Assembly (NCBI GenBank): GCA_023131225.1
Contig: JAGLZW010000029.1
Coordinates: 1-57,346 of the forward strand
Origin: Candidatus Bathyarchaeota archaeon
Lineage (GTDB): Archaea > Thermoproteota > Bathyarchaeia > Bathyarchaeales > SOJC01
Reading direction: 5' to 3'
DNA length: 57,346 nucleotides
A program made the translations under genes and the position numbers. The notes beneath the pieces were generated by a model, which saw only the letters and a program-made list of their open reading frames with translations, ran no database searches and had not been told where the DNA came from. Shown here one piece after another: positions 2,547-57,346 of the stretch; the first letter of the stretch is position 1; every line of letters starts with the position of its first letter.

Positions 2547-2610
2547 GTTTAAAACCTCAAATAGTAATATTACTGCTGGTTAATTTGAGGCTTGCTCTCA
2601 ATTTTGTCGA

Positions 2611-29964: not shown

Positions 29965-30045
29965 ACCTCTATATCCTCCCCTTTTTTATGTGTTGCTGAA
30001 GTCGCAGCTTCGAGCTTGTTCTTCTGTGGAGTCCATGAAAACTGT

Positions 30046-30074
30046 TCTAACGTTAGAGAAAAAAGAAGGGGTTA
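30046..30074 (-). terminator. Palindrome TCTAACGTTAGA with CCCCTTCTTTTTT run
   Basis: On the minus strand the pyrimidine run CCCCTTCTTTTTTC is followed by the perfect palindrome TCTAACGTTAGA. The same pairing is found at 54916-54941 and 56207-56229 in element 2. Here it stands after the leftmost minus-strand genes of element 1, and probably ends their transcript before attL. Confidence 0.55.
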
Positions 30075-30168
30075 GTTAGCATTGCTGTGCCAAATCAACT
30101 CTATCAGCCGATCCGTCTTATTCCCCTCTGCAAGAGTTCTCTCAGTTTCTCTAAGAGCCTCTTCCCAC

Positions 30169-31853: not shown

Positions 31854-31895
31854 AAATTGTATTATAGTAATGATCTTAATGTAAATGTTAGGCTT

Positions 31896-32354: not shown

Positions 32355-32364
32355 ACTTCATCCT

Positions 32365-33705
32365 CTAAAGTGCGCTAGAAACCATTTTCTTCTCTGCTTT
32401 TACTATACTTGGTACAAAGCCCTTTACTCTTCCATCAGAAAGTACGGTTAGTCTTTCAATTGATGATCCTTTTTGGCTCTTCCTCAGATGATATACAGAT
32501 AATTCATTCTTTGTTAAACTATATCCTAAAGCTTTCTCTGAGAAAAGTGGCTTAAATGCTGTCAGAAAATCCCCACTATGAGAAGTCACAATAATCTGCT
32601 TCTGCAATCTTTTCGCATGAGCAAAAAGCTTTGGGAGTTCTAGTTGAAGATTCAAATGTAGACTTATTTCAGGTTCTTCTATTGCAATAGTGCTGTCAAG
32701 TTTTGAGTGGAATATCTGAGTTAAGACTACAAGTATCTGTTTTGACCCATGTCCAGCAAAAACTATGTCGTTGTTGGCGTCCATAATTGGATCCTTGAAT
32801 GTTGCTTTAACACGATTGTTTCCTACATAACCCGCATGCAATTTGTCCAAACCAAAAGTTCTAGCCCACTCAGTCACATAGTCTCGTGACCTTTCTAACT
32901 CCACATTGCCAAATATCAGAGACAATACCCTTACTAAATCCTCTCCTTCAACACCAACCCACTCAGCCTTTCCCGCAGTATCTGTTAATAAACGAGGAGT
33001 TGCTCTTGTCGGACGTAGAATAAAATATTTGTTTATCATCTCTCTTATTATTCTAACTAGATCTCTCGAAAATCTATTGTAAACATTTGTTGTTTGTCGC
33101 ACTTCATCCGTTGGTTTCCCACTTTTTGAAAAACTGAAAGTATTGTCAATCAACAAAGACCTTGGATCACCAGTGCATTCTACTCTACCAGCAACTTTTT
33201 TGTTCGGCACATAAACATGATTTCTATGTGTACCTTTTTGTGATACGAACTCAACCCTTTCTAATGTTTCATCATTCAGCAGTAGGGTTTGCTTTGTCTC
33301 AAAAGGCTGGTTTTTCCTAGATTGTCTGAAGGATAGTTCATATCCAATTTCTTTGAATTTTATTGGAAATGGGAGATACTCCTTTATTACTTTAAAATCC
33401 GAATAAATAAGATTGTTAATGAGTTCTTCAGAAGTTAGATTAATCCCGAGTCCAATTGTAATCCATTCTTCTTCATTGTTATTAGACACAATGTCCGTAT
33501 AAGAGCCAAAGTCAACAGGAGATTTGAATGGGTCTTGTCCAAGTCTCATCATATATCCCATCCCCTGCCTTAAAAGTTGAATTGCTTCAAGAACACTTGA
33601 TTTCCCAGAGCCATTTTCACCGTAAATCACAGTAATAGGAGCTAGTTCTAATTTGACGTCTTTCAAACATCGAAAGTTTTTGATTTCTATTCTCGAAAGA
33701 AACAT
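32365..33705 (-). CDS. ABC/SMC-like ATPase (AAA_15/AAA_21, OLD-type ATPase half)
   Basis: About 446 residues from ATG 33705; an upstream ATG at 33765 would add 20 hydrophobic residues with no clear role. Walker A is YGENGSGKSSVLEAI (28-42). The signature region GHGSKQILVV comes late (about 330-345), Walker B is DSTIAIEEPEISLH and the switch His is in IIVTSHSGDFL. No TOPRIM or other nuclease domain follows, so it differs from full OLD proteins. It is co-transcribed with the PIN-like gene at 31896, which may supply the nuclease. Confidence 0.85.
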   Translation of the reverse strand: MFLSRIEIKNFRCLKDVKLELAPITVIYGENGSGKSSVLEAIQLLRQGMGYMMRLGQDPFKSPVDFGSYTDIVSNNNEEEWITIGLGINLTSEELINNLIYSDFKVIKEYLPFPIKFKEIGYELSFRQSRKNQPFETKQTLLLNDETLERVEFVSQKGTHRNHVYVPNKKVAGRVECTGDPRSLLIDNTFSFSKSGKPTDEVRQTTNVYNRFSRDLVRIIREMINKYFILRPTRATPRLLTDTAGKAEWVGVEGEDLVRVLSLIFGNVELERSRDYVTEWARTFGLDKLHAGYVGNNRVKATFKDPIMDANNDIVFAGHGSKQILVVLTQIFHSKLDSTIAIEEPEISLHLNLQLELPKLFAHAKRLQKQIIVTSHSGDFLTAFKPLFSEKALGYSLTKNELSVYHLRKSQKGSSIERLTVLSDGRVKGFVPSIVKAEKKMVSSAL

Positions 33706-33866
33706 AATTGTCAATAAGGCTAGGACTAGATAAAATTTTGTTATAGAGGAATTGTTGATTATCATTTCGACGCATCAACATCTAGTAAATCACTATAGTT
33801 GAAATGCGGAAAAGTTATAGCATAACTAAAGGAACTAGTTGAACTTGGAAGAGGTAGATTTTTGCA

Positions 33867-34457
33867 TTGAATGGTGATTTACTTATTCTCCTCCTAGGTG
33901 GAATCATTGCCATTTTGTCTTCGGTTGTAACCTATTATCTAAACTATATTCTTAGAATAAAAGAGCAAAGTATTTCCAGAGAGTTTACAATGCGAAAAGA
34001 GGCAAGACACTTTTTTCAAACTTTGTACGGTATCGTTAGTCGTCTAACTGATTTTATGAGATCTTATACTGAAGAAGATATTGACAAACCTTTAATGCTA
34101 TCTAAAGTGGGCTATAAGAGAGTCTTACGAGAAGAAATAGTCAAAGAGTACAAGAATGCATACAAGGAGGGAATTGAACTTTGGTCAAAAGCTGCCAAGG
34201 AGGGTTTTGAAATCTTTCTACCTCCAGATTTAGCTGATGAATTGGCTGTCTTCTGGGCTTTTGCTAGTTTTCTCAAAAGGCAAAATAATTGGAAAGAAGT
34301 AGAAAAGGAACTACCGATTTTCGTTATGCGCTCAGAAAGGATTATGGATATGATTGAAGAGTCACTGGGTCTGAAAAGAAGAACAACAATGAAAAGACCG
34401 AAATGGTTAAGATGGAGGCAAATACGTTCTATTATTAAGGGTGAAAAAGCTGCCTGA
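33867..34457 (+). CDS. Membrane-anchored helical protein
   Basis: 196 residues. One N-terminal transmembrane helix (LLILLLGGIIAILSSVVTYYL) is followed by a long charged helical cytoplasmic part. No family recognised. TTG start; the gene is divergent from the ATPase/PIN unit and shares its promoter region (33706-33866). Its 3' end overlaps the next small gene (34441) by 17 bases. Confidence 0.6.
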   Translation: MNGDLLILLLGGIIAILSSVVTYYLNYILRIKEQSISREFTMRKEARHFFQTLYGIVSRLTDFMRSYTEEDIDKPLMLSKVGYKRVLREEIVKEYKNAYKEGIELWSKAAKEGFEIFLPPDLADELAVFWAFASFLKRQNNWKEVEKELPIFVMRSERIMDMIEESLGLKRRTTMKRPKWLRWRQIRSIIKGEKAA

Positions 34458-34614
34458 AGAAAAAAAGAAAAAAGGTCCTTATTTTGCCAAAGAAACTGCT
34501 GTAAAAACAAGAAAAGTCTCCACAATACGTAAGGGACTTGTTAGAACCTCTGATGTTTCCAAATATCTGAAGACATTAGAAAGGCGTGCAAGTCAAAAGA
34601 AGAAAGAAACGTAA
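34441..34614 (+). CDS. Small basic protein
   Basis: 57 residues from GTG 34441 to TAA 34612-34614, overlapping the end of the preceding gene in another frame. Very rich in Lys and Arg (KKLPEEKKKKG at the start, RRASQKKKET at the end). It may be a nucleic-acid-binding or antitoxin-like peptide. No homolog recognised. Short and lysine-rich, so confidence is limited. Confidence 0.45.
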   Translation: MKKLPEEKKKKGPYFAKETAVKTRKVSTIRKGLVRTSDVSKYLKTLERRASQKKKET

Positions 34615-34666
34615 AATAAAACATCTACTCTTTAGAGCGAGAAGAAAAGAGAAGCTACTTTTCAAG

Positions 34667-34973
34667 ATTTTATGGCTTGTGGAAGAAACTTCTAAATCAT
34701 ACATTCAAGAGAGCTTTCTTTTGCATTTTGGACAAGCCGCAGGATATTCTTTCATACTGACTCCGCACAGAAAGCATATACAAATGTTGCACTGGAGACA
34801 ATGCCAATTAGCTCCAGTGATTCTTCGTCTACAAAGATAACAAGGCTTGGTTAGACACGTATCAGACATAGTGTCCTTTTTTCAGAAGAGGGTATTTAGA
34901 GACTTTGAAGCAACGACAAATGGCAAAGCAGAGAGAAGAGTGAAAGTTCCAAGTTCCAGAAGCCATGCATGCA
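34667..34973 (-). repeat. About 307-bp repeat shared (inverted) with element 2
   Basis: The minus strand of this segment is about 88-90% identical by eye to 53767-54072 on the plus strand. It covers a complete 54-residue gene and about 100 bases upstream, including the region CAAAGTCTCTAAATACCCTC that is likely its promoter. Similarity fades on both sides. Confidence 0.85.
34705..34869 (-). CDS. Four-pair Cys zinc-ribbon protein
   Basis: 54 residues, ATG at 34869 and TGA at 34705-34707. The Cys pairs are CYLC (10-13), CLQCNIC (about 24-30), CFLC and CPKC, so a double zinc site is expected. It is nearly identical to the product of 53871-54035 in element 2. The changes are mostly silent or conservative, which shows that both genes are, or recently were, under selection. 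Function unknown; likely a conserved part of this element family. Confidence 0.75.
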   Translation of the reverse strand: MSDTCLTKPCYLCRRRITGANWHCLQCNICICFLCGVSMKEYPAACPKCKRKLS

Positions 34974-34986
34974 TTGAGAAGACGTA

Positions 34987-35232
34987 CTAAATCACCTTTT
35001 TTTCACGTAGCTTATTTTCTAACTCGAAGATTTGTTGTCTCAAAGCGTAGATTTCATCCTCATCAGAATAAAGCCACCATGCCATTAACACGTTTAGAAA
35101 TGTGAAAAGTATAGGCGCTAAAAAGAAGATAGAGAGGTATGTTTCGTTCCATACGCTATTAGGTATAAAGGACAATCCGACAAGTTCTGCGAAGAAAACT
35201 GCAAGGTAAATGAGAAATGCTAAAACACGCAT
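34987..35232 (-). CDS. Two-helix membrane protein
   Basis: 81 residues. Two transmembrane helices (VLAFLIYLAVFFAELVGL and YLSIFFLAPILFTFLNVLMAWWL) are followed by an acidic coiled-coil tail (DEDEIYALRQQIFELENKLREKK). Architecture is typical of small element or virus membrane proteins. No family recognised. ATG start at 35232. Confidence 0.6.
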   Translation of the reverse strand: MRVLAFLIYLAVFFAELVGLSFIPNSVWNETYLSIFFLAPILFTFLNVLMAWWLYSDEDEIYALRQQIFELENKLREKKVI

Positions 35233-35438
35233 TATCTTACATCCTCAATTCTGAAAGGTTCGTTTAACTTTTTATGTTTATTGGCGGCGTACATCCTTGA
35301 GCGTTGTAACAGGACCCTATGTATGCATGCACAACATAGAAGCGAGAAATGCAATGGATGTGCTTTTCTAGGTTAGTAGTGGAGACATCTCCCGCATTCT
35401 CTCCATTTTTTATGTGCTTGCATTTAGACGAATAGAAT

Positions 35439-36206
35439 TTACTTGTTTGGAAAAAGAGCATTTAATACCTTTATCATTCTTCTATATGCTTGAAAAGCTA
35501 TCTCTTCTATTAGTTCATTCTGTATGATTCTCCAGTATGTGAAGTCGAACGGTTCATAACGAACGGGTTTACGCTGCTCAAGATAGTCCAAAACAGAGAA
35601 CTCCTCCAATATTTTGCCCTTTGTATCTCTTTTTGAGAATGTTTTTTCCTCAATCGTCTTTCTTTTATCTGGTTCAACAAACTGAAGAAGCTTACGAATA
35701 TCTCTAAGCATTATCCTATTTGCCCAAATTTCTAGCTCTGGTTCTCGCGGTGTGAGTGTCCCTGGCTGTTTTATTTCAAAAGGATTACCAATATATAGCG
35801 GATGAGCGACAATTTCGTTTCGAGTTTTTCTCAACCAATCCGCATCTCTGAGCAAGCTAGTACACTTATCGTTTGTTCTTCTTAGTTCCTCAATGACCTT
35901 CTTGAAGCTAAATTTCTTCACTTCTATCTCCCAATATGTTTGTTCCCAATCTTCTGAAAGGAAAATCAAAGTATGCTTAAGCGTAAGCTCGGCTGCAATT
36001 GCAGAGCAAATGATGCAGCTTCTGAAACATCCATATATAAAGGAACTCTTTGCTTCTTCACAATAATCAGCTATTCGAAAGGTAGAAAAATCAGGCAATT
36101 TTAAAGATGCTAATCTATTAAGTCGGGACGCTCTCAAAGTTTTCTCATGTTCGTTGTTCTTACGGAAAATCACACCGTTGCGTAAAGGTGAACTCTCACC
36201 GTTCAA
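35439..36206 (-). CDS. HEPN-like helical protein
   Basis: 255 residues, all-helical. LRKTRNEIVAHPLY (125-138) contains R129-NEIVA-H135, which fits the RX4-6H motif of HEPN RNases. The region before it (SSFIYGCFRSCIICSAIAAELTLKH) resembles the first HEPN helix that covers small Cys/Ala residues. A DUF4145-like protein is also possible. It is a lone gene in the element; the TTG start at 36206 is uncertain. If active, it would be an RNA-targeting effector. Confidence 0.55.
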   Translation of the reverse strand: MNGESSPLRNGVIFRKNNEHEKTLRASRLNRLASLKLPDFSTFRIADYCEEAKSSFIYGCFRSCIICSAIAAELTLKHTLIFLSEDWEQTYWEIEVKKFSFKKVIEELRRTNDKCTSLLRDADWLRKTRNEIVAHPLYIGNPFEIKQPGTLTPREPELEIWANRIMLRDIRKLLQFVEPDKRKTIEEKTFSKRDTKGKILEEFSVLDYLEQRKPVRYEPFDFTYWRIIQNELIEEIAFQAYRRMIKVLNALFPNK

Positions 36207-36469
36207 GTTTCGTATACACTTCCATTATTAAGACACAATCCCCTGTTGGTATAAGTTTTGTGAGTTGCCAAGTTTTTCCTGAAGTTGAAATTCTTTGTTT
36301 GTTTAAGGGATTTTTGGGAATATCCGTAGATTTTCGTGTGTTCTTTTATGAACTCCACAAAAAAAGAAGGGGTTGAAGGGCGGATACTATTAAGTCTGTT
36401 GACCAACCTAAAAACTGAATTACGAGTTCAGAAACTTAAAACCTAATAAGTTGTTTCACTTTACATAGT

Positions 36470-36874
36470 GTGAAAGTTATGACAAATAGTGAAAAAGAAA
36501 ATAAGGCGAAGCTCTCAAAAGAAGAAGTGAAGAATTTAGTTGAGATGCTTAGGTATCTGATGGATGCATATGGTTTTTTTGCTGAGAAGCTGGGAAAAAT
36601 CCAAAAGTCTCATAAAGAAGCTTTTGATTCCATGTTTTCACTTGAATCTGCTGAAAAACTACCAGAAATGATGAGCATGATGGTTGAAAAAGCCCCTGAA
36701 ATGGGTAAACTATATACTAGCATATTTATTAGAATGATGACCGTCATGCCTAGGATAAATAAGCTAATGACCTTATCAGCAGATGAAAAAATAAAGTTGG
36801 GGGAAAGCCTCAAAACTTTGGCTAAAGACCTTGATAAGTTGCTAGAATGGATTGATAAGATGGAAGAAAAATGA
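36470..36874 (+). CDS. Helical protein, first gene of a three-gene HEPN unit
   Basis: 134 residues, entirely helical and Met/Lys/Glu-rich (LVEMLRYLMDAYGFFAEKLG, LPEMMSMMVEKAPEM, LAKDLDKLLEWIDKM). No family recognised. GTG 36470 lies in the inverted repeat TTTCAC-N10-GTGAAA; ATG 36479 is an alternative start. The stop overlaps the next gene as ATGA. Transcribed with the next two genes. Confidence 0.6.
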   Translation: MKVMTNSEKENKAKLSKEEVKNLVEMLRYLMDAYGFFAEKLGKIQKSHKEAFDSMFSLESAEKLPEMMSMMVEKAPEMGKLYTSIFIRMMTVMPRINKLMTLSADEKIKLGESLKTLAKDLDKLLEWIDKMEEK

Positions 36875-37335
36875 TGTTAGAAATCCAAGAATTGGAAAAA
36901 CCGTTTAAGAAAGTCTCACATGGGTTAATGGCAGGCAACATTAGGCTACTGGAAACTGGTATAACCCATCCTTTTATAATACTAAATGATAGAACCAAAC
37001 TTCTAGCTAGAATTTTATCAGATAGAACACCATGGTTGATCAAAACTGAAAAAACTATCCGCAATTTCAGTGAAATCATATATGGGATTAGAGGGATAGA
37101 AGGTCTTTATCTTAATATGAGGGAAGTTTACAACCGCACACCATCTGGATATATTACCGAGATTAGAGTGATTATTCCCGAAAGCAACCGAGATATTGAA
37201 TGTGCGATATATGACGCTTTTGGAGAGCTTTTAAGAAAATCTCGCCCATTATTATTTGATCTTCACATAATCAAACTTAGAGGTCGGAAGCAAGAAGAAG
37301 CTACTCCTGAAGGATTTTGGCGATATGAATGTTGA
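36871..37335 (+). CDS. Unknown protein, middle gene of the HEPN unit
   Basis: 154 residues, alpha/beta. It has a core beta segment YITEIRVIIPESNRDIECAIYDAFGELL that looks like a small catalytic or binding fold. No motif allows a name. Starts at the ATGA overlap with the preceding gene, and its stop overlaps the start of the HEPN gene by 11 bases, so the three are translationally coupled. Confidence 0.55.
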   Translation: MMLEIQELEKPFKKVSHGLMAGNIRLLETGITHPFIILNDRTKLLARILSDRTPWLIKTEKTIRNFSEIIYGIRGIEGLYLNMREVYNRTPSGYITEIRVIIPESNRDIECAIYDAFGELLRKSRPLLFDLHIIKLRGRKQEEATPEGFWRYEC

Positions 37336-37690
37336 TTCCCATCTTTTGAAAGCGGATCGAAATAAGACATTCTTACATAAATTTTTGATGGGAATCATTG
37401 ATAAGTGTCCAGATTGGGTTTCTATTGTGGCTTTCTATTGTGCCCTTCATTTTATAGAAGCTTTTCTAAAGAAAAACCACGGTTTAGATTTTAAACATCA
37501 CGAAGAGAGACATACATTTCTGAGTCACAGTGTTCCCAAAAGAATTTTCTCGGCTTACTATCGCCTTTACGATTATGCGTTTAATTCGAGATACAAAGCG
37601 TTAAAAGATGCTCCCACTTGTGATGAAGCAAATTCATCAGTTCAATTTGATCTTGCTGATGTAGAGAGTTTTGTTAGGGCAAATATTTAG
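37325..37690 (+). CDS. HEPN domain protein
   Basis: 121 residues. WVSIVAFYCALHFIEAFLKK (about 32-51) resembles the first helices of the HEPN/DUF86-like family (W-x-A-FY-A-H-EA). HHEERHTFLSH follows and then IFSAYYRLYDYAFNSRYKA, with the Y-L-Y-A-SRY pattern typical of such proteins. No clear RX4-6H motif is seen, so it may be a non-catalytic HEPN or rely on the partner. Third gene of the tightly overlapped operon. Confidence 0.62.
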   Translation: MNVDSHLLKADRNKTFLHKFLMGIIDKCPDWVSIVAFYCALHFIEAFLKKNHGLDFKHHEERHTFLSHSVPKRIFSAYYRLYDYAFNSRYKALKDAPTCDEANSSVQFDLADVESFVRANI

Positions 37691-37702
37691 TCTACGGTAT
37701 CT

Positions 37703-38107
37703 TTAGGGTATACCGCTATAGACTTGAACTTCTTTTTCTTCCTTTAAGGCGTAAAAAATCGGATTCGTTAAACTCATAAAACGGTCTTCCAGTTCAACCA
37801 AAGGCACATCATCCCGCAAAGCCAACGCGAAGAGCGCTGACATTGGTAACTCAACTTTCTCGTGCCTAGCCCAATCCATTTCAACGCTGTACGCTGGAAA
37901 AATCTCAGGTGTAGCATTGCGTTTTAAGTGGACAAGAACAACGTCGTCGTTCATAGCAATTATTCGGTCTTTCAAGTTGAAAACGTGTGGTTGCTTCAAG
38001 ATTTCTTTTTTGCTTACGAAGACAGAAATGAAATCTTGTGGGATAGTGACTTGTTTGGCTTTTATAACGTTGACGTGGTTGCGGTTGAACAGTTTTGGAA
38101 ACTTCAC
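37703..38107 (-). CDS. Element protein of unknown function
   Basis: 134 residues, mixed alpha/beta, soluble. No recognised family. Features: VTIPQDFISVFVSKKEIL and a segment DDVVLVHLKRNATPEIFPAYSVEMDWARHEKVELP. The first four bases overlap the end of the basic gene at 38104, so both belong to a minus-strand operon driven from the divergent operator region 38293-38430. Confidence 0.55.
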   Translation of the reverse strand: MKFPKLFNRNHVNVIKAKQVTIPQDFISVFVSKKEILKQPHVFNLKDRIIAMNDDVVLVHLKRNATPEIFPAYSVEMDWARHEKVELPMSALFALALRDDVPLVELEDRFMSLTNPIFYALKEEKEVQVYSGIP

Positions 38108-38292
38108 TTTTTACGCCCCTTCTTACGCTTCTTCTTCTTGAGGTGTATCTTAGGTTTCCTTTGTGCAATTTGCCTAGCTTTACCAAAGTCACCTTTCAGA
38201 ACAGCTTTTCGCATATCGCTGTTTCTTTTCGACCTAAAACTAGAATACTTCCTTTGATACTTTTTTTGATTATTTTTACTCTTGTAAGGCAT
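38104..38292 (-). CDS. Small highly basic protein
   Basis: 62 residues, about half Lys or Arg (tail KKKKRKKGRKK). A nucleic-acid-binding role is likely. ATG at 38292; 12 bases upstream begins the first copy of the palindromic operator. Element 2 has a shorter counterpart at 48835-48930 with the same basic tail. Confidence 0.6.
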   Translation of the reverse strand: MPYKSKNNQKKYQRKYSSFRSKRNSDMRKAVLKGDFGKARQIAQRKPKIHLKKKKRKKGRKK

Positions 38293-38304
38293 GCGTTCTC
38301 ATTA

Positions 38305-38366
38305 GGTTTGATACCAAACCTTTATTAAACAGTTTCGGTAGTGGTTACTTGGTTTGATACCAAACC
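38305..38366. promoter_or_regulatory. Double palindromic operator between divergent element genes
   Basis: GGTTTGATACCAAACC occurs twice, at 38305-38320 and 38351-38366, 46 bases apart. Each has 6-bp inverted arms. Between them are TTTATTAAAC and AGTTTCGG, which could hold a TATA box. The two copies sit between the minus operon (38104, 37703) and the plus operon (38474 onward), so one repressor may control both. The repressor is not identified. Confidence 0.75.
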
Positions 38367-38473
38367 CAAAAAGGTAACTAAGAATTGAAGGAAAAATCCG
38401 TGGACAAGACAAAGTTCAGGTCGAAGACGTGGCATCACCGCCTTCCCGACGGCAAGCTCGTAAGGTGCAAACC

Positions 38474-39178
38474 ATGACTGAACATTCTGAGAAAATCACC
38501 CTTGAGAAGAAGCTCACGATAGAAAGACCTTTCACGACAGAGCCAAAAACACGAAGGAAAAACCGCAAGCTAGGAATAGTGAAGAGACGAGTTATTGAGC
38601 TACGGGAAAGCTTCTTTCCAACTGTAAGAGTGCCATATGTAGCAGTTGTACGCCGCATGAAACAGATGTGTCTATGTGACTGTAAGACAATTTTGAATTA
38701 TTTGGGACGTACTGACACAGTAACAAAGACTGTGATAGACCACACGGTTAAGTATGAGAAATCAGGACAGCTTATTCCAAAGAAGCACACGTTTAGGCGT
38801 ACTTTACATGAGCAAGAAGGGTACATAGCTGTTCTTGAGCAAGGCCATCTTGAGAAAGATGGGAATGGTTCTGTTTCGGTTGTGTGGAATCATCAGGTAC
38901 AGACTGATTTTTTGCGCGTATTGGGCAACAATAATGAATTGGTGTGTGGTTCAAAGAACTTTTCTCTCTCTCCTTTAGGGGAAGGAAACGAAGAGGCTGG
39001 GGAGAGTTTGGTTGACAGGGATATGTCTACTACTATAAGAGAATATAATAATAATAATAATCTCATAGGGGGAGAGAGAAAAAAGTCCAAAGATAGTGAA
39101 GGTGAAAGTGAAAGTAATCGGCTTTCTGATGAAGAAAACATGATTCTTGAAGCTGCCAAAAAGGAGGCTTCAACGTGA
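38474..39178 (+). CDS. Element protein with basic N-terminus
   Basis: 234 residues from ATG 38474, supported by AAGGTG six bases upstream; GTG 38429 would add 15 residues. The N-terminus is basic (KTRRKNRKLGIVKRR), then VRVPYVAVVRRMKQMCLCDCKTILNYLGR looks like a helix-turn-helix. A low-complexity tail has five Asn from an AAT repeat and GEGESES-like acidic residues. A DNA-binding role is likely. First gene of the plus-strand operon 38474-40297. Confidence 0.6.
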   Translation: MTEHSEKITLEKKLTIERPFTTEPKTRRKNRKLGIVKRRVIELRESFFPTVRVPYVAVVRRMKQMCLCDCKTILNYLGRTDTVTKTVIDHTVKYEKSGQLIPKKHTFRRTLHEQEGYIAVLEQGHLEKDGNGSVSVVWNHQVQTDFLRVLGNNNELVCGSKNFSLSPLGEGNEEAGESLVDRDMSTTIREYNNNNNLIGGERKKSKDSEGESESNRLSDEENMILEAAKKEAST

Positions 39179-39513
39179 GTAGGCAGGTTGTTCGTAAGAA
39201 GCCTTATTTCGGTTTGGACTTCACTGAGGTTCTTAAGCTAAGTGTGAAAGTTCCAGTCACCACAACTATAGATCGCAGGTCTAAGCTTGCTTTCACTGGT
39301 ATCTTGGTCTTAGATTTTCACAAGAATTCGTATAGGTATGATAATGAGGCTGTTCTCGCTGTGTGGAGCTACAGCTACCCAGTTGTGAAGGCACGTTCTA
39401 GTAACCGCAATTATGGCCGTTCTGAAATTATCCTTCCTCTCAGTTGTGAAGTGCGCGATTTCCTTATGGCTTGTGCGTGCGAGGTTGATGCGCATCTTAA
39501 AGGTGTGAAGTAA
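39175..39513 (+). CDS. Element protein of unknown function
   Basis: 112 residues, GTG start overlapping the preceding stop (GTGA). Beta-rich (KLSVKVPVTTTIDRRSKLAFTGILVLDF; AVLAVWSYSYPVVKARS). It could be an OB-like or other small beta domain, perhaps a single-strand-binding protein, but this is only from appearance. Part of the plus operon. Confidence 0.55.
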   Translation: MSRQVVRKKPYFGLDFTEVLKLSVKVPVTTTIDRRSKLAFTGILVLDFHKNSYRYDNEAVLAVWSYSYPVVKARSSNRNYGRSEIILPLSCEVRDFLMACACEVDAHLKGVK

Positions 39514-39529
39514 TGGAAGGTGACTTAAC

Positions 39530-39703
39530 ATGACGGATTCTTTTGAGAATGTTGGCATATTGAAACTTGCTAGTACGGGGCGATCCTACAAGCTTGAGTA
39601 TTTAGGCTTCATCTCGGCCTATGTTAGCGTGAAGGATGTGGAGCTTGTGCGTCAGGGGAAGAAGAAGACAGCTACGATTTTCAAAGTGAAAAGGAGAGAG
39701 TAA
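39530..39703 (+). CDS. Small element protein
   Basis: 57 residues, ATG 39530 after GGAAGGTGACTTAAC (good binding site), TAA 39701-39703. Beta-rich sequence (ILKLASTGRSYKLEYLGF, then VSVKDVELVRQG) with a basic C-terminus (FKVKRRE). No family recognised. Part of the plus operon; one base separates it from the membrane gene. Confidence 0.6.
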   Translation: MTDSFENVGILKLASTGRSYKLEYLGFISAYVSVKDVELVRQGKKKTATIFKVKRRE

Positions 39704-39704
39704 G

Positions 39705-39920
39705 ATGGCGGATCCAAAACCCGCGTTAGCGTTGCTTGTCATTGTAGGCTTAGTCTCTCTCTTCTGTTGGATCGCATTGCCTCAGGTGATGAGAAGCGCC
39801 ACAACGATTCACGGCAACGTAGCGTTTCAAATATCTACTTACGTCTTGTTTGCTGTTCCCCTGTTGCTAGTTGGCTTGGTTGGTTTTATTCTATTCGTGA
39901 AGAGTAGGGAATCAGATTGA
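39705..39920 (+). CDS. Two-helix membrane protein conserved in both elements
   Basis: 71 residues. Two transmembrane helices (LALLVIVGLVSLFCWIAL and YVLFAVPLLLVGLVGFILFV) joined by a short loop with RSATTIHGN. It is about 70% identical to the product of 56753-56962 in element 2, including the opening MADPKPA. Small two-helix proteins of this size are major capsid proteins in spindle-shaped archaeal viruses, but no direct match can be claimed. ATG follows the previous stop by one base. Confidence 0.75.
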   Translation: MADPKPALALLVIVGLVSLFCWIALPQVMRSATTIHGNVAFQISTYVLFAVPLLLVGLVGFILFVKSRESD

Positions 39921-40297
39921 GAGCGCGATTGCAGAGAAATGATGTTCTTTTCATATTGGACTTGCTGAAAAAAGAGAAGGAGAGGCATGACGTTGAAATG
40001 GAAGACCTGCGACAGGAGATAGACCTCTTGGAAGTTTGGGTTAAAAAATGGAGGTGGAGGTTGATTAACTATTCCTATTTCGAGTTTCGAGATGGCTTCA
40101 ATTTTATGAAGGCTCGACTTGCTTATTTGAAAAGTCAACAAAACTTCATTAAGATGTTTACGTTCTCGCGGGCGCTGCACTATTTAACTAAGCGATATGA
40201 AAGCTTGCTAAGAGGTAAGGCTGGAAGACCGTTGGGCGTGACTGATTGGGGTAAGCATGACCTTGAGGCAGTTGTTAAAGAAAGAAAGCGTCCATAA
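39917..40297 (+). CDS. Element protein with coiled-coil and basic end
   Basis: 126 residues. TTG start overlaps the stop of the membrane gene (TTGA). A charged coiled coil (LLKKEKERHDVEMEDLRQEIDLLEVWVKKW) is followed by a basic, aromatic region. No family recognised. Last gene of the plus operon, ending just before the phased repeat module at 40300. Confidence 0.6.
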   Translation: MRARLQRNDVLFILDLLKKEKERHDVEMEDLRQEIDLLEVWVKKWRWRLINYSYFEFRDGFNFMKARLAYLKSQQNFIKMFTFSRALHYLTKRYESLLRGKAGRPLGVTDWGKHDLEAVVKERKRP

Positions 40298-40299
40298 TC

Positions 40300-40340
40300 G
40301 TTGAAATTGTCAAACTCTGCTACTTATACCATTTATATAT
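40300..40340 (+). promoter_or_regulatory. Phased 9-bp repeat + AT-rich box (module D)
   Basis: Repeats at 40300 (GTTGAA), 40309 (GTCAAA) and 40318 (TGCTAC; weak) are 9 bases apart. TATACC-ATTTATATATA begins at 40325, exactly 25 bases after the first repeat. The layout is the same as three modules in element 2. A hairpin CTCTATCTAAGAGAG follows. It is likely a promoter with upstream operator, serving the region before the integrase. Confidence 0.6.
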
Positions 40341-40488
40341 ATTATCTCTATCTAAGAGAGAAATAGGCTTTCTTTTGAATCAAAAGCTTGTAAAGCATGG
40401 GTGTTTAACCTTTTGCACGAAAGCTTTAATAAAGCATGAACGCCTATGTATTTCGCGGCTAGGTAACTAGCCAGTAGAAGGCGATAAA

Positions 40489-41271
40489 ATGGAAAGTCTG
40501 AAAATGAAAAGAGGAAGCACTGGAAGAAAAGGATACTGGGCATCACATCAATACTCAAGACGCGCAGTGGTTGACCTAAATGGCAAAGAGTTCTGCGGTT
40601 GGGGAGCATTGGCTAAGATGTGCGAAGCTGCTATGGACACTTCACGGTACACTTGGGAGCAACAGTTTCTATGCGAAAGAGACAGAGCGTTAATCGCCAT
40701 ACTATTCTTGACGGGAGCTAGAGCCGACGAAGTTGTTAGGCTAAGGAAGTCTATGTTTACTTTCGACGAAGCATGGATATACGGGAAAATGATTCCAGTT
40801 GTCAAGTCGTGGCGATATGTGGATAGCAAGAAAACAAGAGTGGAAAAGCAAGCGCGTGGAGAAAAGCCTAGAACAAAGACCCTAAAGAAAACGCGCGAGA
40901 TAGTTTTTCCCCGAAGAGAACCCTTAAGCGAAATATTGATAGAATGGCTAGATCAAGTGCAAGACTACCTATTCCCCTCAAAGTTTCACCGACACCGAAA
41001 ACACCTAAGCCCGATACGCGCCTACCAAATAGTATGCGATTTAGCAGAGAGAACAGGCTTCGATATGTGGCCTCACCGACTAAGATCAGAACGCGCTAGT
41101 CAACTAGGAAGCGAATACGGATATAGAACAAGAGACATAATGCGGTTCTTCGCGTGGGAGTCTGAGAAAACAGCAAGACGCTACGTTCACGAAAGCATAG
41201 AAGACATGAAAAAAAGAATCCCCGAAATAAGCTACAACCTTTCAGTTAAGGATTGGCTACTGACTACCTAA
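40489..41271 (+). CDS. int: Tyrosine recombinase (integrase) of element 1
   Basis: 260 residues. Catalytic residues: Arg in LTGARADEVVRL (about 80), a Lys-rich beta region (KTLKKTREIVFP), HRLRSERASQL (HxxR), then FAWESEKTARRYVHES, in which Tyr is the nucleophile and a Trp replaces the usual second His. No N-terminal core-binding domain of full size is seen, so it is a compact integrase. ATG start after AGAAGGCGAT. Its TAA (41269-41271) lies in the right att repeat, so attP was at the 3' end of int. Confidence 0.88.
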   Translation: MESLKMKRGSTGRKGYWASHQYSRRAVVDLNGKEFCGWGALAKMCEAAMDTSRYTWEQQFLCERDRALIAILFLTGARADEVVRLRKSMFTFDEAWIYGKMIPVVKSWRYVDSKKTRVEKQARGEKPRTKTLKKTREIVFPRREPLSEILIEWLDQVQDYLFPSKFHRHRKHLSPIRAYQIVCDLAERTGFDMWPHRLRSERASQLGSEYGYRTRDIMRFFAWESEKTARRYVHESIEDMKKRIPEISYNLSVKDWLLTT

Positions 41272-41802
41272 CTTACTTATTATCGTTTCAAAACTTTCAT
41301 TCCAATCTTTAACCATAAGGTTTGGAAATGACCAAGTTGCATGGGGATTATAAAATCTGTCCAGACTTATGGTCTTAAGGTTTGTGCAAAAGTGTTTTAG
41401 CCCGGCTAATATTACAAATTCCATGTAGTAGGGGAGCCCCATGAACATTGCGAGGTCATACGGGCCCATTCCGTCTAACCCTTTCCATTCTGGGTCCTTA
41501 ATCCTATTACCAATGTCCATTGCAGACATCCAAGCAGCGGGTTGAAAGCCTCTCTTGATAAATTCGATTGTCACGTGCGCTGTGGCTACCACAGGGATTC
41601 CAGCAGTCTTGCTCATGCGGATTACGTAATCAATCATTTTGACATCATCTGAATAATCCTCAGCGGCCAGGTGTCCGACGACGAGGATGGGACGCTTTGC
41701 TCTATGCACCATTGCAACCACCACCTCAGGCTTCAAGATGATAAGAGCTTTCTTGGGACCCGCGATCTCAGCTCTCTGCCACGGTTCTGCCTTCACACCC
41801 AT
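41257..41802 (-). CDS. cdhB: ACDS/CODH complex epsilon subunit with element-altered tail
   Basis: 181 residues from ATG 41802, one base after the cdhA stop and with AAAGGTGA upstream; GTG 41811 is an alternative. The fold is Rossmann-like (MVHRAKRPILVVGHLAAED about 27-45; FIKRGFQPAAWMSAMDIGN). It supports the CO dehydrogenase of CdhA. Its last residues, LGSQ, come from the integrated element: the original tail, still readable outside attL, was LGGELKNVHV. It ends inside the integrase 3' end on the opposite strand. Confidence 0.93.
   Translation of the reverse strand: MGVKAEPWQRAEIAGPKKALIILKPEVVVAMVHRAKRPILVVGHLAAEDYSDDVKMIDYVIRMSKTAGIPVVATAHVTIEFIKRGFQPAAWMSAMDIGNRIKDPEWKGLDGMGPYDLAMFMGLPYYMEFVILAGLKHFCTNLKTISLDRFYNPHATWSFPNLMVKDWNESFETIISKLGSQ
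41267..41315. repeat. attR: right 49-bp direct repeat of element 1
   Basis: Identical to 29916-29964. Here it is the 3' coding end of the present cdhB on the minus strand and holds the stop codon of int on the plus strand. After the repeat the minus frame runs out into element DNA as only SQ-stop. Confidence 0.95.
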
Positions 41803-44158: not shown

Positions 44159-44357
44159 TATCCATGACCTCTGACATATTTACAATCTATATTTAGAGTG
44201 TAGTAAATTGCCAAGAATCTTAATTAACCTTTCGCGTATGCATCTCCTGCTTCTTTTCTTCCATTTTGAGGAAATCTTCATTCCTTTCAACGATTGCTTT
44301 TCCACTTTTTAGGTTTATAAGTTCTGCAAAAATTTTCAATGAGACGTTTTAACTAGT

Positions 44358-45119
44358 TTAGTAACCTGCTTCTGCCATGAACTTTTTCACTGAAATGTAT
44401 GCAAGGGATGAGGAAGAAAGTTCAAGTAAAGGTTTTCCAGAGAAAACATAGTCTTCGACGTCTTTGTCGTAGGCGATTTTCCCCAGATATTTCAGTTTTA
44501 TTCTTTTTTTAACTTCTTCTTCTAGTTTCTCTGGAACTCGATAGCCCGCGATAACGTAGAAATTTTTGAAATCGATCTTAACCTCTTTGGCGACTCTGTA
44601 TGCTCTCTCAATGTGGTTGAAGGATTTCTGGGAAGGATCTATTATGTCAAATATGACGTCTACCTGAGAAGTTATTCTTCTGTTTAGGTGCTCTAGTCCA
44701 GCTGGAGAATCAACGAGAACGTATCTGTAGGTCTTCGTTAACCTTTCCAAGGCTTTTTTCAACGCAGCGTCTGGTAAACAGTAACAGCCTTCCATAAATT
44801 TTGTACCAACAGCGATCAGATCAAAAGAGTCTCCTTCATATAGTCCCTTTTCCCAGATCGTACTTTCTATTCTTTCTGAAGGAGGTACTCCGACTGTGGT
44901 GCCTCCTTTCTCCTTAAAAGTTTCAAGCAATAACTCAGATATTGTCTTCTTCCCCTCTTCTTTAAGGTCTATTCCAACCATTTCTCCCAAGTTTTGATCA
45001 GGATCTACATCTACAAGAAGGAGGGGAATTTCGCCGATTTCAATGAAGTATTTGGTCATGAGAGAGACAAAAGTTGTTTTTCCGCTTCCCCCTCTACCCA
45101 TAGAGACAATTGTTTTCAT
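44358..45119 (-). CDS. cooC: CooC-type ATPase for CO dehydrogenase nickel insertion (copy 1)
   Basis: 253 residues. Deviant Walker A MGRGGSGKTTF (7-17), VDVDPDQNLGEM, and the CooC nickel/zinc motif EGCYC (about 111-115), followed by LVDSPAGLEHLNRR (about 138-151). It binds Ni and hydrolyses ATP to mature the C-cluster or A-cluster. It lies 200 bases upstream of cdhA. A second copy is at 45349; they are clearly diverged, so they may serve different clusters (C in CdhA, A in CdhC). Confidence 0.9.
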   Translation of the reverse strand: MKTIVSMGRGGSGKTTFVSLMTKYFIEIGEIPLLLVDVDPDQNLGEMVGIDLKEEGKKTISELLLETFKEKGGTTVGVPPSERIESTIWEKGLYEGDSFDLIAVGTKFMEGCYCLPDAALKKALERLTKTYRYVLVDSPAGLEHLNRRITSQVDVIFDIIDPSQKSFNHIERAYRVAKEVKIDFKNFYVIAGYRVPEKLEEEVKKRIKLKYLGKIAYDKDVEDYVFSGKPLLELSSSSLAYISVKKFMAEAGY

Positions 45120-45209
45120 CTAACTCATCTTTCTCTGTGTTTCTTCTGCCAATTCTTATACTTTGCGCGTCTGTATAAATTAGCGCTGGTGTATTTCTAA
45201 AAGCGTGTG

Positions 45210-45308
45210 TTACTGTAATTGCTTTGGCTCACAGCTATATGAGCAATCTTTGCATCCTTTGCAGTTTTCGGGGTTAGCAGGATTAAATACTCATCTATTA
45301 TCTCCAAG
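45210..45308 (-). pseudogene. Ferredoxin 3' remnant
   Basis: On the minus strand one frame reads ENCKGCKDCSYSCEP and then a stop. The second-cluster region of the ferredoxin at 12957 is nearly the same (ENCKGCKDCSQEC). The preceding LEIID is in a shifted frame, and no first cluster is left. It shows a duplication of this ferredoxin that decayed here. Confidence 0.65.
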
Positions 45309-45348
45309 CGCATGCAAATAAACATGCATACATGCTGTTAATCTCATA

Positions 45349-46128
45349 CTACCGTCTGATCTGGATGATTCTCGCACCCAAATTTTCAATAGTTCGTACT
45401 GCAGAAGAATCTTCATATTTAAGCGGCGTCTCTCCTTGCATCTCCGCCTTTATGACTTGTTCGTCGAAAGGCACGAAATCCAGCATGTTCAAGCTGTTGT
45501 TTTCAGCGAATTTCTTAATCGCGTCCTTCTGCGGTTCGCTTGCCACCTTATTCCCTATTAGAAAAACCTGTTTAATGCCTGCTTCCTTGGCTAGTCTATG
45601 GATGTGCTTAGCAGTTTCCAAAGATTTTATGCTAGAGTCTGTAACGATCAACATAGTGTCGACATGCTTCGCGGTTCCTCGACCCAAATGCTCGACACCT
45701 GCTTCCATATCGAGAAGCACCACCTCGTCCCGCTCCACTACCAAATGGCGAAGCAAAGCACGAATAACAGCATTCGCAGCGCAAGTGCACCCCGAACCCA
45801 TCGATCGTACTGTTCCCATCACTATCAAATTCACATCACAAGGAGTTTGAACAGAAAAGTCACGAACAATGTCGTCTACAGTGAAAGAAAGGCGATAGAC
45901 GCCTGAGACCCCAGTGTTTGTTTTTGATTCAACTAGCTCTTTGTTTTCTGATATCGGCACTAAATCTCGTGCTTTCTTTAGCGGTAGACCCAAGGTTAGG
46001 GCAAGATTCGGAGAAGGATCAGCATCAATGGCAATTGTTTTTAATCCTTTGCTGGCGAAAGAACAGGCAAGGGCTCCTGCAATTAAGGTTTTGCCCACTC
46101 CGCCCTTCCCAGAAACCGCTATTTTCAC
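45349..46128 (-). CDS. cooC: CooC-type ATPase for CO dehydrogenase nickel insertion (copy 2)
   Basis: 259 residues. Walker A SGKGGVGKTLIAGAL (6-20), then IDADPSPNLALTLG, and a CooC CxC motif GSGCTCAA (about 111-118) with LLDMEAGVEHLGRGTAKHVD (about 138-157). It belongs to the MinD/CooC/AcsF family. GTG start after AAATCGA. It is the last clear host gene before the integrase of element 2. Confidence 0.9.
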   Translation of the reverse strand: MKIAVSGKGGVGKTLIAGALACSFASKGLKTIAIDADPSPNLALTLGLPLKKARDLVPISENKELVESKTNTGVSGVYRLSFTVDDIVRDFSVQTPCDVNLIVMGTVRSMGSGCTCAANAVIRALLRHLVVERDEVVLLDMEAGVEHLGRGTAKHVDTMLIVTDSSIKSLETAKHIHRLAKEAGIKQVFLIGNKVASEPQKDAIKKFAENNSLNMLDFVPFDEQVIKAEMQGETPLKYEDSSAVRTIENLGARIIQIRR

Positions 46129-46167
46129 TCGATTTCCCTCGTTTTCACCCTTTTTTCTCTTAGTGGC

Positions 46168-47307
46168 TTATTTACGTTTCTTGAAGTAGAGCAGATCTTC
46201 CTTTTCGCAGATATATTCGAAGCCTACCTCCAGCAATTCCTGAATTTCCTTCGAGGTCTTAGCTACTTTCACAGTGAAAGCATCACGGGTTTCTTTGAAG
46301 ATTGCTTCCGTGAGCTGAACGTAGAGGAGCGTTGTTTCGATGTTTCGGTGTCCTAGAAACTCTTTGACGTAGAGAATATCTTTAGTGTCATGGTAGAGCA
46401 TTGTTGCTTTCCAATGGCGGAGTGTGTGAAAGCTTATTTTCAGCAATCTAGGATTCTGAAGTTTTTTTGCCAATCTTTTCCTAGCCAGGTAAAATGATGA
46501 TCGCTTATTAGCTGCTGATGGTCCAAAGACTTTCTGATCTTTTCTTTGCAGAGTGTTAAGCATGCCTAACAGTTTGCTGCTGACTTTGAAGATTCTTGGG
46601 TTGCCGCCTTTCTCTGGTTTGTTCAATGTTATGGTTTGGCGTTCAAAGTCGATGTCGCTCCATTCAAGTCTGTTAGCTTCGCCTTTTCTCATAGCTGTTT
46701 CCTTCAAGATTTGAAGAAACGTTGCTGTCTTCTTGCCGCAACCAGCGATTAAAGCATCGATTTCTTCTCCTTTTGGGATGAAAGGCAACTTGCGTGTCAC
46801 CTTACATATTGGTGGCTTCCAGGTTTGGTCGTGCATTTTCAAGAACAAAGTATAAGCAGCAATGGCGTTGTGTCTTCTCGCGTTGCTCCATTCCTGTTCC
46901 GCTATTGTTTCTTTTACGCTTTCAGGGTTCAGGACATCTGCGCCTCTTTGCCAAAGCACTTTGAGAACGGTTGTGTTTACTCTGATTGTTGTGTCTGCGT
47001 ACCCATTCTTTTTCATCCACCATGCGAATTCAACAAGCTTTCCTTTGACATTGGCTTCTGTTGGCTTTGTGGCTCCCGCAAGCCCTTCTCTAAGCGGTTC
47101 TACTTTGGTCAAATTTCTCACTAGCCCATGGGCTTTAGGCTTAGCGCCTATTTGACAAGTAAAACCTATGCTTGAAGGTCTATTTTTGTTTTTGGAGAAG
47201 CGGACGCCACAGTCTCGGCAGAGCCACCGTTGCACGTCGTCATAGTTTGTTTTTCGTATGCCATCTTTCCAGACGCGCTGCGACGTACATTCTGGACATT
47301 TAGGCAT
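46168..47307 (-). CDS. int: Tyrosine recombinase with N-terminal zinc ribbon
   Basis: 379 residues from ATG 47307. Residues 1-40 are a transposase-like zinc ribbon (CPECTSQRVWKDG..CRDCGVRF). A core-binding domain follows (about 80-180) and then the catalytic domain: Arg in ETAMRKGEANRLEW, Lys in LNKPEKGGN, HTLRHWKAT, LGHRNIETTLLYVQL. An upstream GTG could extend it to 47400. The stop is 40 bases before the cooC GTG. Its C-terminal third matches the remnant at 8944. Confidence 0.9.
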   Translation of the reverse strand: MPKCPECTSQRVWKDGIRKTNYDDVQRWLCRDCGVRFSKNKNRPSSIGFTCQIGAKPKAHGLVRNLTKVEPLREGLAGATKPTEANVKGKLVEFAWWMKKNGYADTTIRVNTTVLKVLWQRGADVLNPESVKETIAEQEWSNARRHNAIAAYTLFLKMHDQTWKPPICKVTRKLPFIPKGEEIDALIAGCGKKTATFLQILKETAMRKGEANRLEWSDIDFERQTITLNKPEKGGNPRIFKVSSKLLGMLNTLQRKDQKVFGPSAANKRSSFYLARKRLAKKLQNPRLLKISFHTLRHWKATMLYHDTKDILYVKEFLGHRNIETTLLYVQLTEAIFKETRDAFTVKVAKTSKEIQELLEVGFEYICEKEDLLYFKKRK

Positions 47308-47437
47308 GGTGGACGCGAGAGCATCGTTCGAACTCGTACTATGCCTTTCTTGAGACTTGTATGACGAACACCTAGCTTTTCTGCTCTGCAGATCCACCAC
47401 TACCCGAAATCACCTTTCTCTGAGAGTCTCTAAACTA

Positions 47438-53766: not shown

Positions 53767-54072
53767 CATGCATGGCTTCTTGAACTAAAATCTGTTTCAC
53801 TCTTCTCTCTGCTTTGCTATTTGTCGTTGCTTCAAAGTCTCTAAATACCCTCTTGTGAAAAGAGGATACTATGTCTGATGCGTGTTTGACCAGGCCTTGT
53901 TATCTTTGTGGACGAAGAATCACTGGAGCTAATTGGCATTGTCTCCAGTGCAACATCTGCATATGCTTTCTATGCGGAGTCAGCATGAAAGAATATCCTG
54001 CGGCTTGTCCAAAATGCGGAAGAAAGCTCTCCTAAATATGATAACTAGAAGTTTCTTCCACAAGTCATAAAA
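53767..54072 (+). repeat. Copy of the zinc-ribbon gene repeat shared with element 1
   Basis: About 306 bases closely match the minus strand of 34667-34973. The match covers the coding region 53871-54035, about 100 bases upstream and about 35 downstream. Confidence 0.85.
53871..54035 (+). CDS. Four-pair Cys zinc-ribbon protein
   Basis: 54 residues, ATG 53871, TAA 54033-54035. Cys pairs CYLC, CLQCNICIC, CFLC and CPKC as in 34705-34869, with few amino-acid differences (C-terminal part CPKCGRKLS here, CPKCKRKLS there). A double zinc-binding fold is expected. The start has GAGGATACT upstream. Part of the shared gene set of the two elements. Confidence 0.75.
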   Translation: MSDACLTRPCYLCGRRITGANWHCLQCNICICFLCGVSMKEYPAACPKCGRKLS

Positions 54073-54898: not shown

Positions 54899-54930
54899 GG
54901 GTTTTTCGCCAATAAACCCCTTCTTTTTTC
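54897..54930 (+). terminator. Hairpin terminator after the 54539 gene
   Basis: AGGGGTTT (54897-54904) pairs perfectly with AAACCCCT (54914-54921), with a 9-base loop, followed by TTCTTTTTT. An unusually bacterial-like intrinsic terminator. Confidence 0.7.
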
Positions 54931-54941
54931 TAACGTTAGAA
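54916..54941 (+). repeat. Pyrimidine run + CTAACGTTAG palindrome (copy 2)
   Basis: CCCCTTCTTTTTT is followed by the 14-base palindrome TTCTAACGTTAGAA (54928-54941). The same unit is at 30046-30074 and 56207-56229. Confidence 0.6.
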
Positions 54942-55831: not shown

Positions 55832-56206
55832 GAAGTAATCTTAAGCCAGCCACGCGTGCGCTATGTTGCCAGGCTAATAAGCACGGAAAGACAGGGTACA
55901 ACAGCGATAAAAGACGCAAATTTCTAAAGAAACCATGTTCTCCAAAGAAATCCTAATAGAAGCCTGGAAATAGGGCACTTTTTTTACAGTTTCCCATGCT
56001 TTTACATCATAGTAGCGCATGCATTTTTCCTTTGCTTTCTGCTTTCCTATGTCCAGATTGCCACATGGAGGAGCATGGAAAAGGTCTAAAGTGACACAAC
56101 GAATCAAGCGAAATCTCAGAATGAAATGTTCCTCTCGCGATCATTGGAATCGTGTTCCAGTAAACAAGATTTTCATCAATTTTAACGGTGTTAACTTTCA
56201 TTTTAC

Positions 56207-56229
56207 CTCTTCTTTTTTCTAACGTTAGA
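56207..56229 (+). repeat. Pyrimidine run + CTAACGTTAG palindrome (copy 3)
   Basis: CTCTTCTTTTTT directly before TCTAACGTTAGA (56218-56229). Matches the copies at 30046 and 54916. Confidence 0.6.
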
Positions 56230-56264: not shown

Positions 56265-56307
56265 GTTGAACCTGTTGAACTAGTTGAACTATAACATTTA
56301 TTTATAG
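56265..56307 (+). promoter_or_regulatory. Phased 9-bp repeat + AT-rich box (module A)
   Basis: GTTGAAC begins at 56265, 56274 and 56283, exactly 9 bases apart. TATAAC-ATTTATTTATA begins at 56290, 25 bases after the first repeat. A hairpin GAAGAG-AAAG-GCTCTTC follows at about 56322. Confidence 0.7.
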
Positions 56308-56424
56308 TATCTTAAATGAAGGAAGAGAAAGGCTCTTCTATGCACAAACAACCGTTCACTTCCCAATATGCACCCTACTAAGAAGTGGAAGGGAAAGCAG
56401 AAGAAAGATAATGAACCTAACACT

Positions 56425-56467
56425 GTTAAAGCTGTTAAAACGGTTAATGTATAACATTAATTTATAC
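56425..56467 (+). promoter_or_regulatory. Phased 9-bp repeat + AT-rich box (module B)
   Basis: GTTAAA begins at 56425 and 56434 and GTTAAT at 56443, 9 bases apart. TATAAC-ATTAATTTATA begins at 56450, again 25 bases after the first repeat. A hairpin CTCTTCT..AGAAGAG follows at once. Confidence 0.7.
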
Positions 56468-56662
56468 TCTTCTAGATGGAGAAGAGAGAGAGGATGCTTG
56501 TTACCAAAACTATCCTTTTGGTAAATAATTTTGGCAAACCATAGTTTGACAAGTAGAAACACCATTGTTTACCATTGGTTTGGTTCTTAGTAAACGCTTT
56601 AGTGTGAACTGAATGGGTATTGAAGCATAAACGACCCCTTTTCTCTCTCTATTTAGAATATT

Positions 56663-56703
56663 ATGAATAAATGTTATACTGTGACAACTTTGATAATTGT
56701 GAC
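56663..56703 (-). promoter_or_regulatory. Phased 9-bp repeat + AT-rich box (module C, inverted)
   Basis: On the minus strand GTCACA begins at 56703 and again at 56685 (18 bases apart), with ATCAAA in the middle position at 56694. TATAAC-ATTTATTCATA begins at 56678, 25 bases after the first repeat. Downstream sequence CTAAATAGAGAG resembles that after module A. It faces modules A and B. Confidence 0.65.
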
Positions 56704-56752: not shown

Positions 56753-56962
56753 TTACTCTCTATTCTTCACAAGCAGGACAAGCCCAATCAATCCTAACAA
56801 CACGAGAGGAAAACCCAACAGAGCATAGAGGGATATTTGAAACGCTATGTTGCCATGAATGACTGTGGCACTTCTCATCACTGGTGGCAACGCAACCCAG
56901 CAGAAGAGAGAAACTAAGCCTACAACAACAAGCAACGCGAACGCGGGTTTTGGATCCGCCAT
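56753..56962 (-). CDS. Two-helix membrane protein conserved in both elements
   Basis: 69 residues. Starts MADPKPAFALLVVVGLV and has a second helix ALLGFPLVLLGLIGLVLLV. Paralog of 39705-39920 in element 1, with most differences conservative. Opposite orientation relative to the integrase compared with element 1. A structural or membrane component of the element family is a reasonable guess. Confidence 0.75.
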   Translation of the reverse strand: MADPKPAFALLVVVGLVSLFCWVALPPVMRSATVIHGNIAFQISLYALLGFPLVLLGLIGLVLLVKNRE

Positions 56963-57020
56963 TCAAGTCACACAGCTAATCACACGTTATTTCCTTTTCC
57001 TATACTCTTATTTTCATATT

Positions 57021-57212
57021 CTATACTTCCAAAAAATTATATGCGATTGATCCACTTAATACCATTGCAAAGAATGCTGTTAAGCCTACTATCAATAAAG
57101 GTAGATCTTGAGTAATAGCACTGTGAAGAGTCAATGCTATAAATACACAGGCTAAGAAGAAACTTATACCAAAGACAATGAAGAAGAAAGACTTTTTTAA
57201 CATTTTAAACAT
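57021..57212 (-). CDS. Two-helix membrane protein
   Basis: 63 residues. Basic start MFKMLKKS and two transmembrane helices (FFFIVFGISFFLACVFIAL and LPLLIVGLTAFFAMVLSGSIAY). No family recognised. ATG at 57212 after AGGAGATG. Upstream of the conserved two-helix gene, same strand, and probably in the same transcript. Confidence 0.6.
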   Translation of the reverse strand: MFKMLKKSFFFIVFGISFFLACVFIALTLHSAITQDLPLLIVGLTAFFAMVLSGSIAYNFLEV

Positions 57213-57332
57213 CTCCTGTTTCTATTTTATTTAAAAAATTTTCTATTCACTTATCCTCACTCATGGAGACCTAATTCATCGCTCACTCTTTAGGCTGCAT
57301 CCAACAGACTCATTGGATAAGCTTTTGTCCAT

Positions 57333-57346
57333 CGGGGGGGGGGGGG
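57333..57346. other. Terminal G run
   Basis: Fourteen G residues at the very end. This looks like a sequencing or contig-end artefact. Confidence 0.7.

Follow-up and report, generated by a model that had tools for sequence, protein, structure and literature searches.

Two mobile elements in the window

The window, a stretch of 57,346 nucleotides from a Candidatus Bathyarchaeota archaeon, holds two related mobile elements. Element 1 (29965–41315) forms an 11.35 kb insertion (29916–41315) which splits the CODH/ACS operon; a direct repeat of 49 bp, identical in its two copies, marks its ends. The left att copy occupies positions 29916–29964 and the right one positions 41267–41315, where it overlaps the ends of two genes, cdhB and the integrase gene. 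The att core is provided by a protein gene, at the 3' end of cdhB, and not by a tRNA gene. Since the flanks are joined at the att sequence in four named Bathyarchaeota genomes (L083–L086), element 1 sits between the cdhB and cdhC genes of this operon; the host cdhC is 88% identical to that of the Bathyarchaeota MAG CSMAG_2176. Element 1 has all the features of a site-specific integrative element, namely an integrase gene, att direct repeats and an empty site in relatives. Its integrase is a tyrosine recombinase (40489–41271, +; Pfam PF00589 Phage_integrase, E=4.3e-16). A 71-aa protein with two hydrophobic stretches (MADPKPA..., 39705–39920, +) and a conserved 126-aa protein (39917–40297, +) are also encoded, the latter directly before the module D1 described below.

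The same 126-aa protein is found in two further elements. Element 3 belongs to the family of element 1, lies on contig C20 of the same genome and has a 48-bp att repeat; a variant occupies the same chromosomal site in the congener G008. Element 4 comes from another genus (G009) and is spread over contigs C44 and C16, its module and its integrase being on different contigs. Searches of viral contigs with the MADPKPA, integrase and 126-aa proteins returned no match, and the alignment of the 126-aa protein returned none among the named genome contigs. Just 5' of the integrase ATG of elements 1, 3 and 4, a dyad is present (GGCTAGGTAACTAGCC; GCCTAGTAAGGCTAGGC; GGGTAGTTACCC) in which the sequence has changed and the symmetry has been kept (window 40455–40475, L043 about 14210–14235, L045:125–150).

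Element 2 is related to the family of element 1 but rearranged. On its left side it encodes a tyrosine recombinase of another type (46168–47400, −; Pfam PF00589, E=8e-21). It also holds a type IIG/ISP restriction-modification gene and homologues of a 54-aa zinc protein and of the MADPKPA protein; the latter (69 aa, 56753–56962, −) is encoded upstream of module C on the same strand. An att repeat was looked for in element 2 and not found. The integrase of element 2 weakly matches an InsA-like zinc ribbon at its N-terminus, and sequences related to the 3' part of its gene occur on at least three other contigs (C26, C31 and C37).

Anatomy of the repeated module

Re-reading of the window confirmed the four modules that the sequence-only reading had placed at 56265 (+, A), 56425 (+, B), 56703 (−, C) and 40300 (+, D1). 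Module A (56265–56334) carries three perfect GTTGAA hexamers at 9-bp steps and an AT box at 56290–56306. Module B (56425–56496) has its box at 56450–56466 and module C (56634–56703, −) at 56678–56662; B and C are convergent. D1 begins with GTTGAA and GTCAAA, two 9-bp-phased hexamers which may form an operator (40300–40314, +), followed by the AT box TATACCATTTATATATA, a putative BRE/TATA (40325–40341), and by the purine-rich region AAGAGAGAAATAGGC (40354–40368), conserved in alignments and predicted from its distance to the box to be the transcription start region. Three phased hexamers per module, as initially described, are thus found in A, B and C but not in D1, whereas the distance of 25 nt from the first hexamer to the box holds for all four.

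Four further copies (D2, D3, D4 and E, see below) share this plan. All eight copies have two to three tandem direct repeats of the GTYRMA type at 9-bp steps, ending 1–10 bp 5' of a conserved TATAAC-ATTWATTTATA box, and a purine-rich AGAGAGAAA-RGGC stretch (AGAGAGAAA..GGC) about 25 nt past the box. D1 to D4 have two hexamers each and E has three; the first hexamer precedes the box by 23 nt in D2–D4 and by 25 nt in the other five copies. In D1–D4 the purine-rich stretch is followed by a conserved leader of about 65 nt. D1 and D4, from different genera, are 70% identical from the first hexamer to the end of the leader (40300–40432 in D1), above the 64.5% of the adjacent coding sequences, and identity drops to 33% over the last ~60 nt before the gene. 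The motif CATGGNTRTTTAA is conserved in the D1–D4 leaders (e.g. window 40396–40409), with an in-frame ATG-NNN-NTT-TAA in 4/4; it is a candidate mini-ORF, second TATA-like box or protein site.

The module is rare and confined to integrative elements

Three 9-bp-phased GTYRMA-type hexamers occur three times in the window (A, B and C) versus 0.01 times expected from dinucleotide shuffles. The composite pattern of hexamers and AT box at +25, which was written from the four modules that it then matches, has exactly four matches in the window and 0.00 in shuffles. In the whole genome (1.92 Mb, 50 contigs) the repeats-plus-box pattern was found only at A, B, C and D1. The composite pattern with up to 3 mismatches returned these same four sites in 257 genomes of the class, while a control pattern read backwards had one match in all of them. 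The strict pattern had no match in the 256 other class genomes, and strict patterns had none in viral contigs.

Sequence models, whose E-values are rough, revealed the four additional copies. D2 (C20:25054, +, same genome), D3 (G008 C9:16603, −) and D4 (G009 C44:8119, +) each follow the 126-aa gene or its remnant, as D1 does. E lies in another element, element 5, on contig C32, and has three 9-bp-phased repeats with the +25 spacing. All eight copies are inside integrative elements; they come from three species and are partly non-independent, D2 and D3 being orthologous and A, B and C lying in one element. A sequence-only model trained on D1–D4 alone (R2) recovered the held-out modules A (E=1.4e-5) and C (1e-3) as its best other matches in the genome, and module B was at noise level (0.019). 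The best false match of R2 in the class, within a coding region, reached 23.5 bits, a ceiling which module A alone clears. A model of seven copies trained without E (R1) found E at 25 bits, against 17 bits for the top-scoring non-member among the 13 genomes of the family. With the eight-copy model, members score 46–63 bits and the next best match anywhere in the 257 genomes 22 bits. A non-member match at 22 bits directly precedes an ordinary gene, a position in keeping with a generic TATA promoter. Weak model matches outside elements were inspected and set aside: one lies inside a coding region (G190), two just before ordinary genes (G077 and G110), and for the others no sign of an element was seen in the stretch around them.

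The spacing-constrained motif search proposed by the sequence-only reading therefore returned only mobile-element matches in the 257 genomes; the scattered matches in host chromosomes which would speak against a family-specific control module did not appear, and this part of the earlier proposal is supported. The module offers a short sequence by which a family of integrative elements of Bathyarchaeia can be recognised; the mobile elements of this class are, to our knowledge, poorly known.

A fixed-distance gene slot points to a promoter

The first open reading frame starts 154–165 nt past the box in four of the five copies D1–D4 and E, and 215 nt past it in the fifth. These genes are unrelated: the integrase in D1 (ATG at 158 nt), a TIR-like gene in D2 (165 nt), a RelA/SpoT gene in D4 (158 nt) and, only in the in-silico circularised form, the integrase of element 5 in E (154 nt). 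The exception is D3, with a PycTM-like gene at 215 nt. The fixed distance before unrelated genes is the strongest argument for a promoter followed by a slot, whose cargo appears swappable and often defence-like. Among the slot genes, those at L043:13250–14116 and L044:14677–15360 resemble TIR effectors and Pycsar TM effectors, respectively, and the RelA/SpoT-domain gene at L051:8307–9316 corresponds to the PDC-S33 model. The variable slot may also recall an archaeal integron, a system characterised by attC sites and an IntI-type integrase. No convincing gene was found behind A, B and C, in agreement with the earlier remark that no protein gene lies close behind A and C.

We consider it probable that the module is an element-specific archaeal promoter for an integrase or cargo slot, with tandem repeats read by a putative factor. 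TBP and TFB would bind the AT box, a protein would bind the tandem repeats cooperatively, thereby activating or repressing, and transcription would start in the purine stretch, cross the leader and enter whichever gene comes next, integrase or cargo. A, B and C would be three instances of this promoter in element 2, which is related but rearranged. The TATA identity of the box is inferred, as is the start site, which is predicted in the purine stretch on the basis of known archaeal TATA-start distances. A profile of TATA positions pooled over Bathyarchaeia genes gave no information, which is probably due to uncertain start codons. Read as a promoter, the module predicts where variable, often defence-like genes are inserted in these elements and by what route they would be expressed. 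The integrase of element 3 may have its own TATA-like sequence too.

The lack of a nearby gene behind A, B and C also fits the suggestion of the sequence-only reading that the modules perhaps drive small structured RNAs, which would have no protein product. So do the hairpins seen in single sequences, the likeness of A and C over 79 nt, which extends ~60 nt past the box, and the sequence downstream of B, which folds better than shuffles (z=−2.94). However, RNAalifold of D1–D4 found a two-sided change at a single isolated pair and the stems are broken in D4, the eight-pair consensus of seven copies is weak, single-sequence folding is not significant except in B, and the Rfam covariance models gave no match. 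The hairpins reported earlier can be formed by individual sequences, but neither where they lie nor how they pair is conserved, and those of D and B mostly straddle or precede the predicted start. Moreover, a real gene stands at a fixed distance behind D1, D2, D4 and E. RNA structure was rejected because of the lack of covariation, and we regard small RNA genes as improbable.

The other function proposed initially was replication. On this reading the repeats would act as iterons and the AT box as the site of melting, together forming a plasmid-type origin or incompatibility site of the elements. Such an origin would agree with tandem direct repeats adjoining an AT-rich stretch, with the confinement of the module to mobile elements and with the PrimPol replication gene of element 5. 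It is disfavoured, though, by the conservation of position, strand and distance to the next gene and by the presence of three copies in one element. In addition, the AT stretch is not loosely AT-rich but consists of a conserved 17-mer, conservation continues into the purine-rich start and the leader, and elements 1 and 3 have no recognisable common initiator; no common Rep-like protein was recognised. An iteron-type role is thus unlikely, and a promoter remains our preferred reading.

Probable promoter and integrase at opposite ends of element 5

Element 5, delimited by an empty site in G008, carries E at its right end, pointing outwards, and its integrase gene at its left end. When its ends are joined in silico, attP falls between the E box and the integrase ATG, which are then 154 nt apart across a junction deduced from the unoccupied site in G008. 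Integration would thus separate promoter and integrase: circularisation would join E to the integrase gene, and integration would part them and turn E-driven integrase transcription off. From this arrangement we infer that an integrase switch active only in the circular form may operate in element 5. Among the elements considered, element 5 only has promoter and integrase at opposite ends and joined in the circle; elements 1, 3 and that of G008 keep them together.

The vicinity of E to the attachment site (~110 nt) and the presence of all copies in integrase-bearing elements would also suit a recombination site, in which the repeats serve as accessory (arm-type) sites for the integrase or an excision factor near attP. 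Yet D1 lies ~930 nt and D2 ~2 kb from att, the same module accompanies the very different integrases of elements 1 and 5, and the TATA-like box and the leader would be left unexplained. We consider this highly improbable and retain the promoter interpretation.

Candidate binding factors and known systems

All-against-all BLASTP found no regulator common to all elements and no detectable shared protein between elements 1, 3 and 4 and element 5. Candidate binders are a host factor or the 126-aa and 129–134-aa proteins conserved in elements 1, 3 and 4. AlphaFold models of the two proteins are of low confidence (pLDDT 64 and 46), and no Pfam match to the RHH family, to which the F55 repressor of SSV1 belongs, was obtained among the element proteins scanned, which included some of the small ORFs. 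In a broader interpretation, doubtful in our opinion, the promoter/leader cassette would be common to integrative elements from a single archaeal lineage that are unrelated in other respects and would form a fixed-distance slot for swapped defence genes, with a circular-form-only integrase switch in one element type. Since the backbones have no detectable regulator in common, its operator might be recognised by a host factor devoted to mobile elements.

The claim that the module has no described counterpart was too strong. Among described systems, F55 of SSV1 comes closest: in this integrative archaeal element, operators made of tandem direct repeats lie at promoters, that of the integrase operon among them, and the repeats, ATAGATAGAGT, overlap the BRE or the start site (PMC5569661, PMC8371274). 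Both systems have at least two tandem direct repeats at the promoter. They differ in that the F55 repeat is ATAGATAG(AGT), a sequence that the GTYRMA repeats of the module do not share, and in that the module repeats lie just 5' of the BRE/TATA at 9-bp steps. The layout of element 5 has counterparts in Pcirc of ICEclc and P3'end of ICEKp1, state-dependent integrase promoters of bacterial conjugative elements (PMC13023037), where promoter and integrase likewise lie at opposite ends and are joined across attP only in the circle. Those promoters are bacterial, that of ICEKp1 being of the sigma-70 type, in contrast to the predicted archaeal TATA type here. Element 5 suggests that archaea, too, possess state-dependent integrase promoters like those of conjugative elements in bacteria. 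The cryptic integrated elements of Thaumarchaeota are likewise att-bounded archaeal elements with a tyrosine recombinase and mostly unknown genes, but they belong to a different class and differ in gene content; no promoter family was reported for them, the word 'promoter' being absent from the text (PMC6563490).

Element-end repeats, window ends and a 54-aa gene

In the congener (G008:C31), the right end of the window (56986–57254) lies ~6.6 kb from its left end (1–3027), and the left flank of element 2 (44200–46202) is ~43 kb away. This discordance of the window ends (56986–57346 and 1–3027) reflects either a rearrangement or a collapsed repeat or misassembly. A poly-G run forms the end of the contig.

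An element-end repeat, ACCYCTTCTTTTTTCTAACGTTAGA, lies just before module A (56205–56229), with other copies at 54916–54940 and, inverted, at 30045–30073. It contains a 12-bp palindrome, TCTAACGTTAGA, which is found near the ends of several elements; a repeat bearing it also adjoins the integrase of the unrelated element 5 (L132:3029–3061). The 54-aa cysteine-rich protein is encoded at 34705–34869 (−) and 53871–54035 (+) of the window, at L043:9291–9455 and at L044:17575–17739. It is 91–96% identical in four elements that are otherwise far more divergent, and since the DNA copies are 90–95% identical, the gene may move as a unit.
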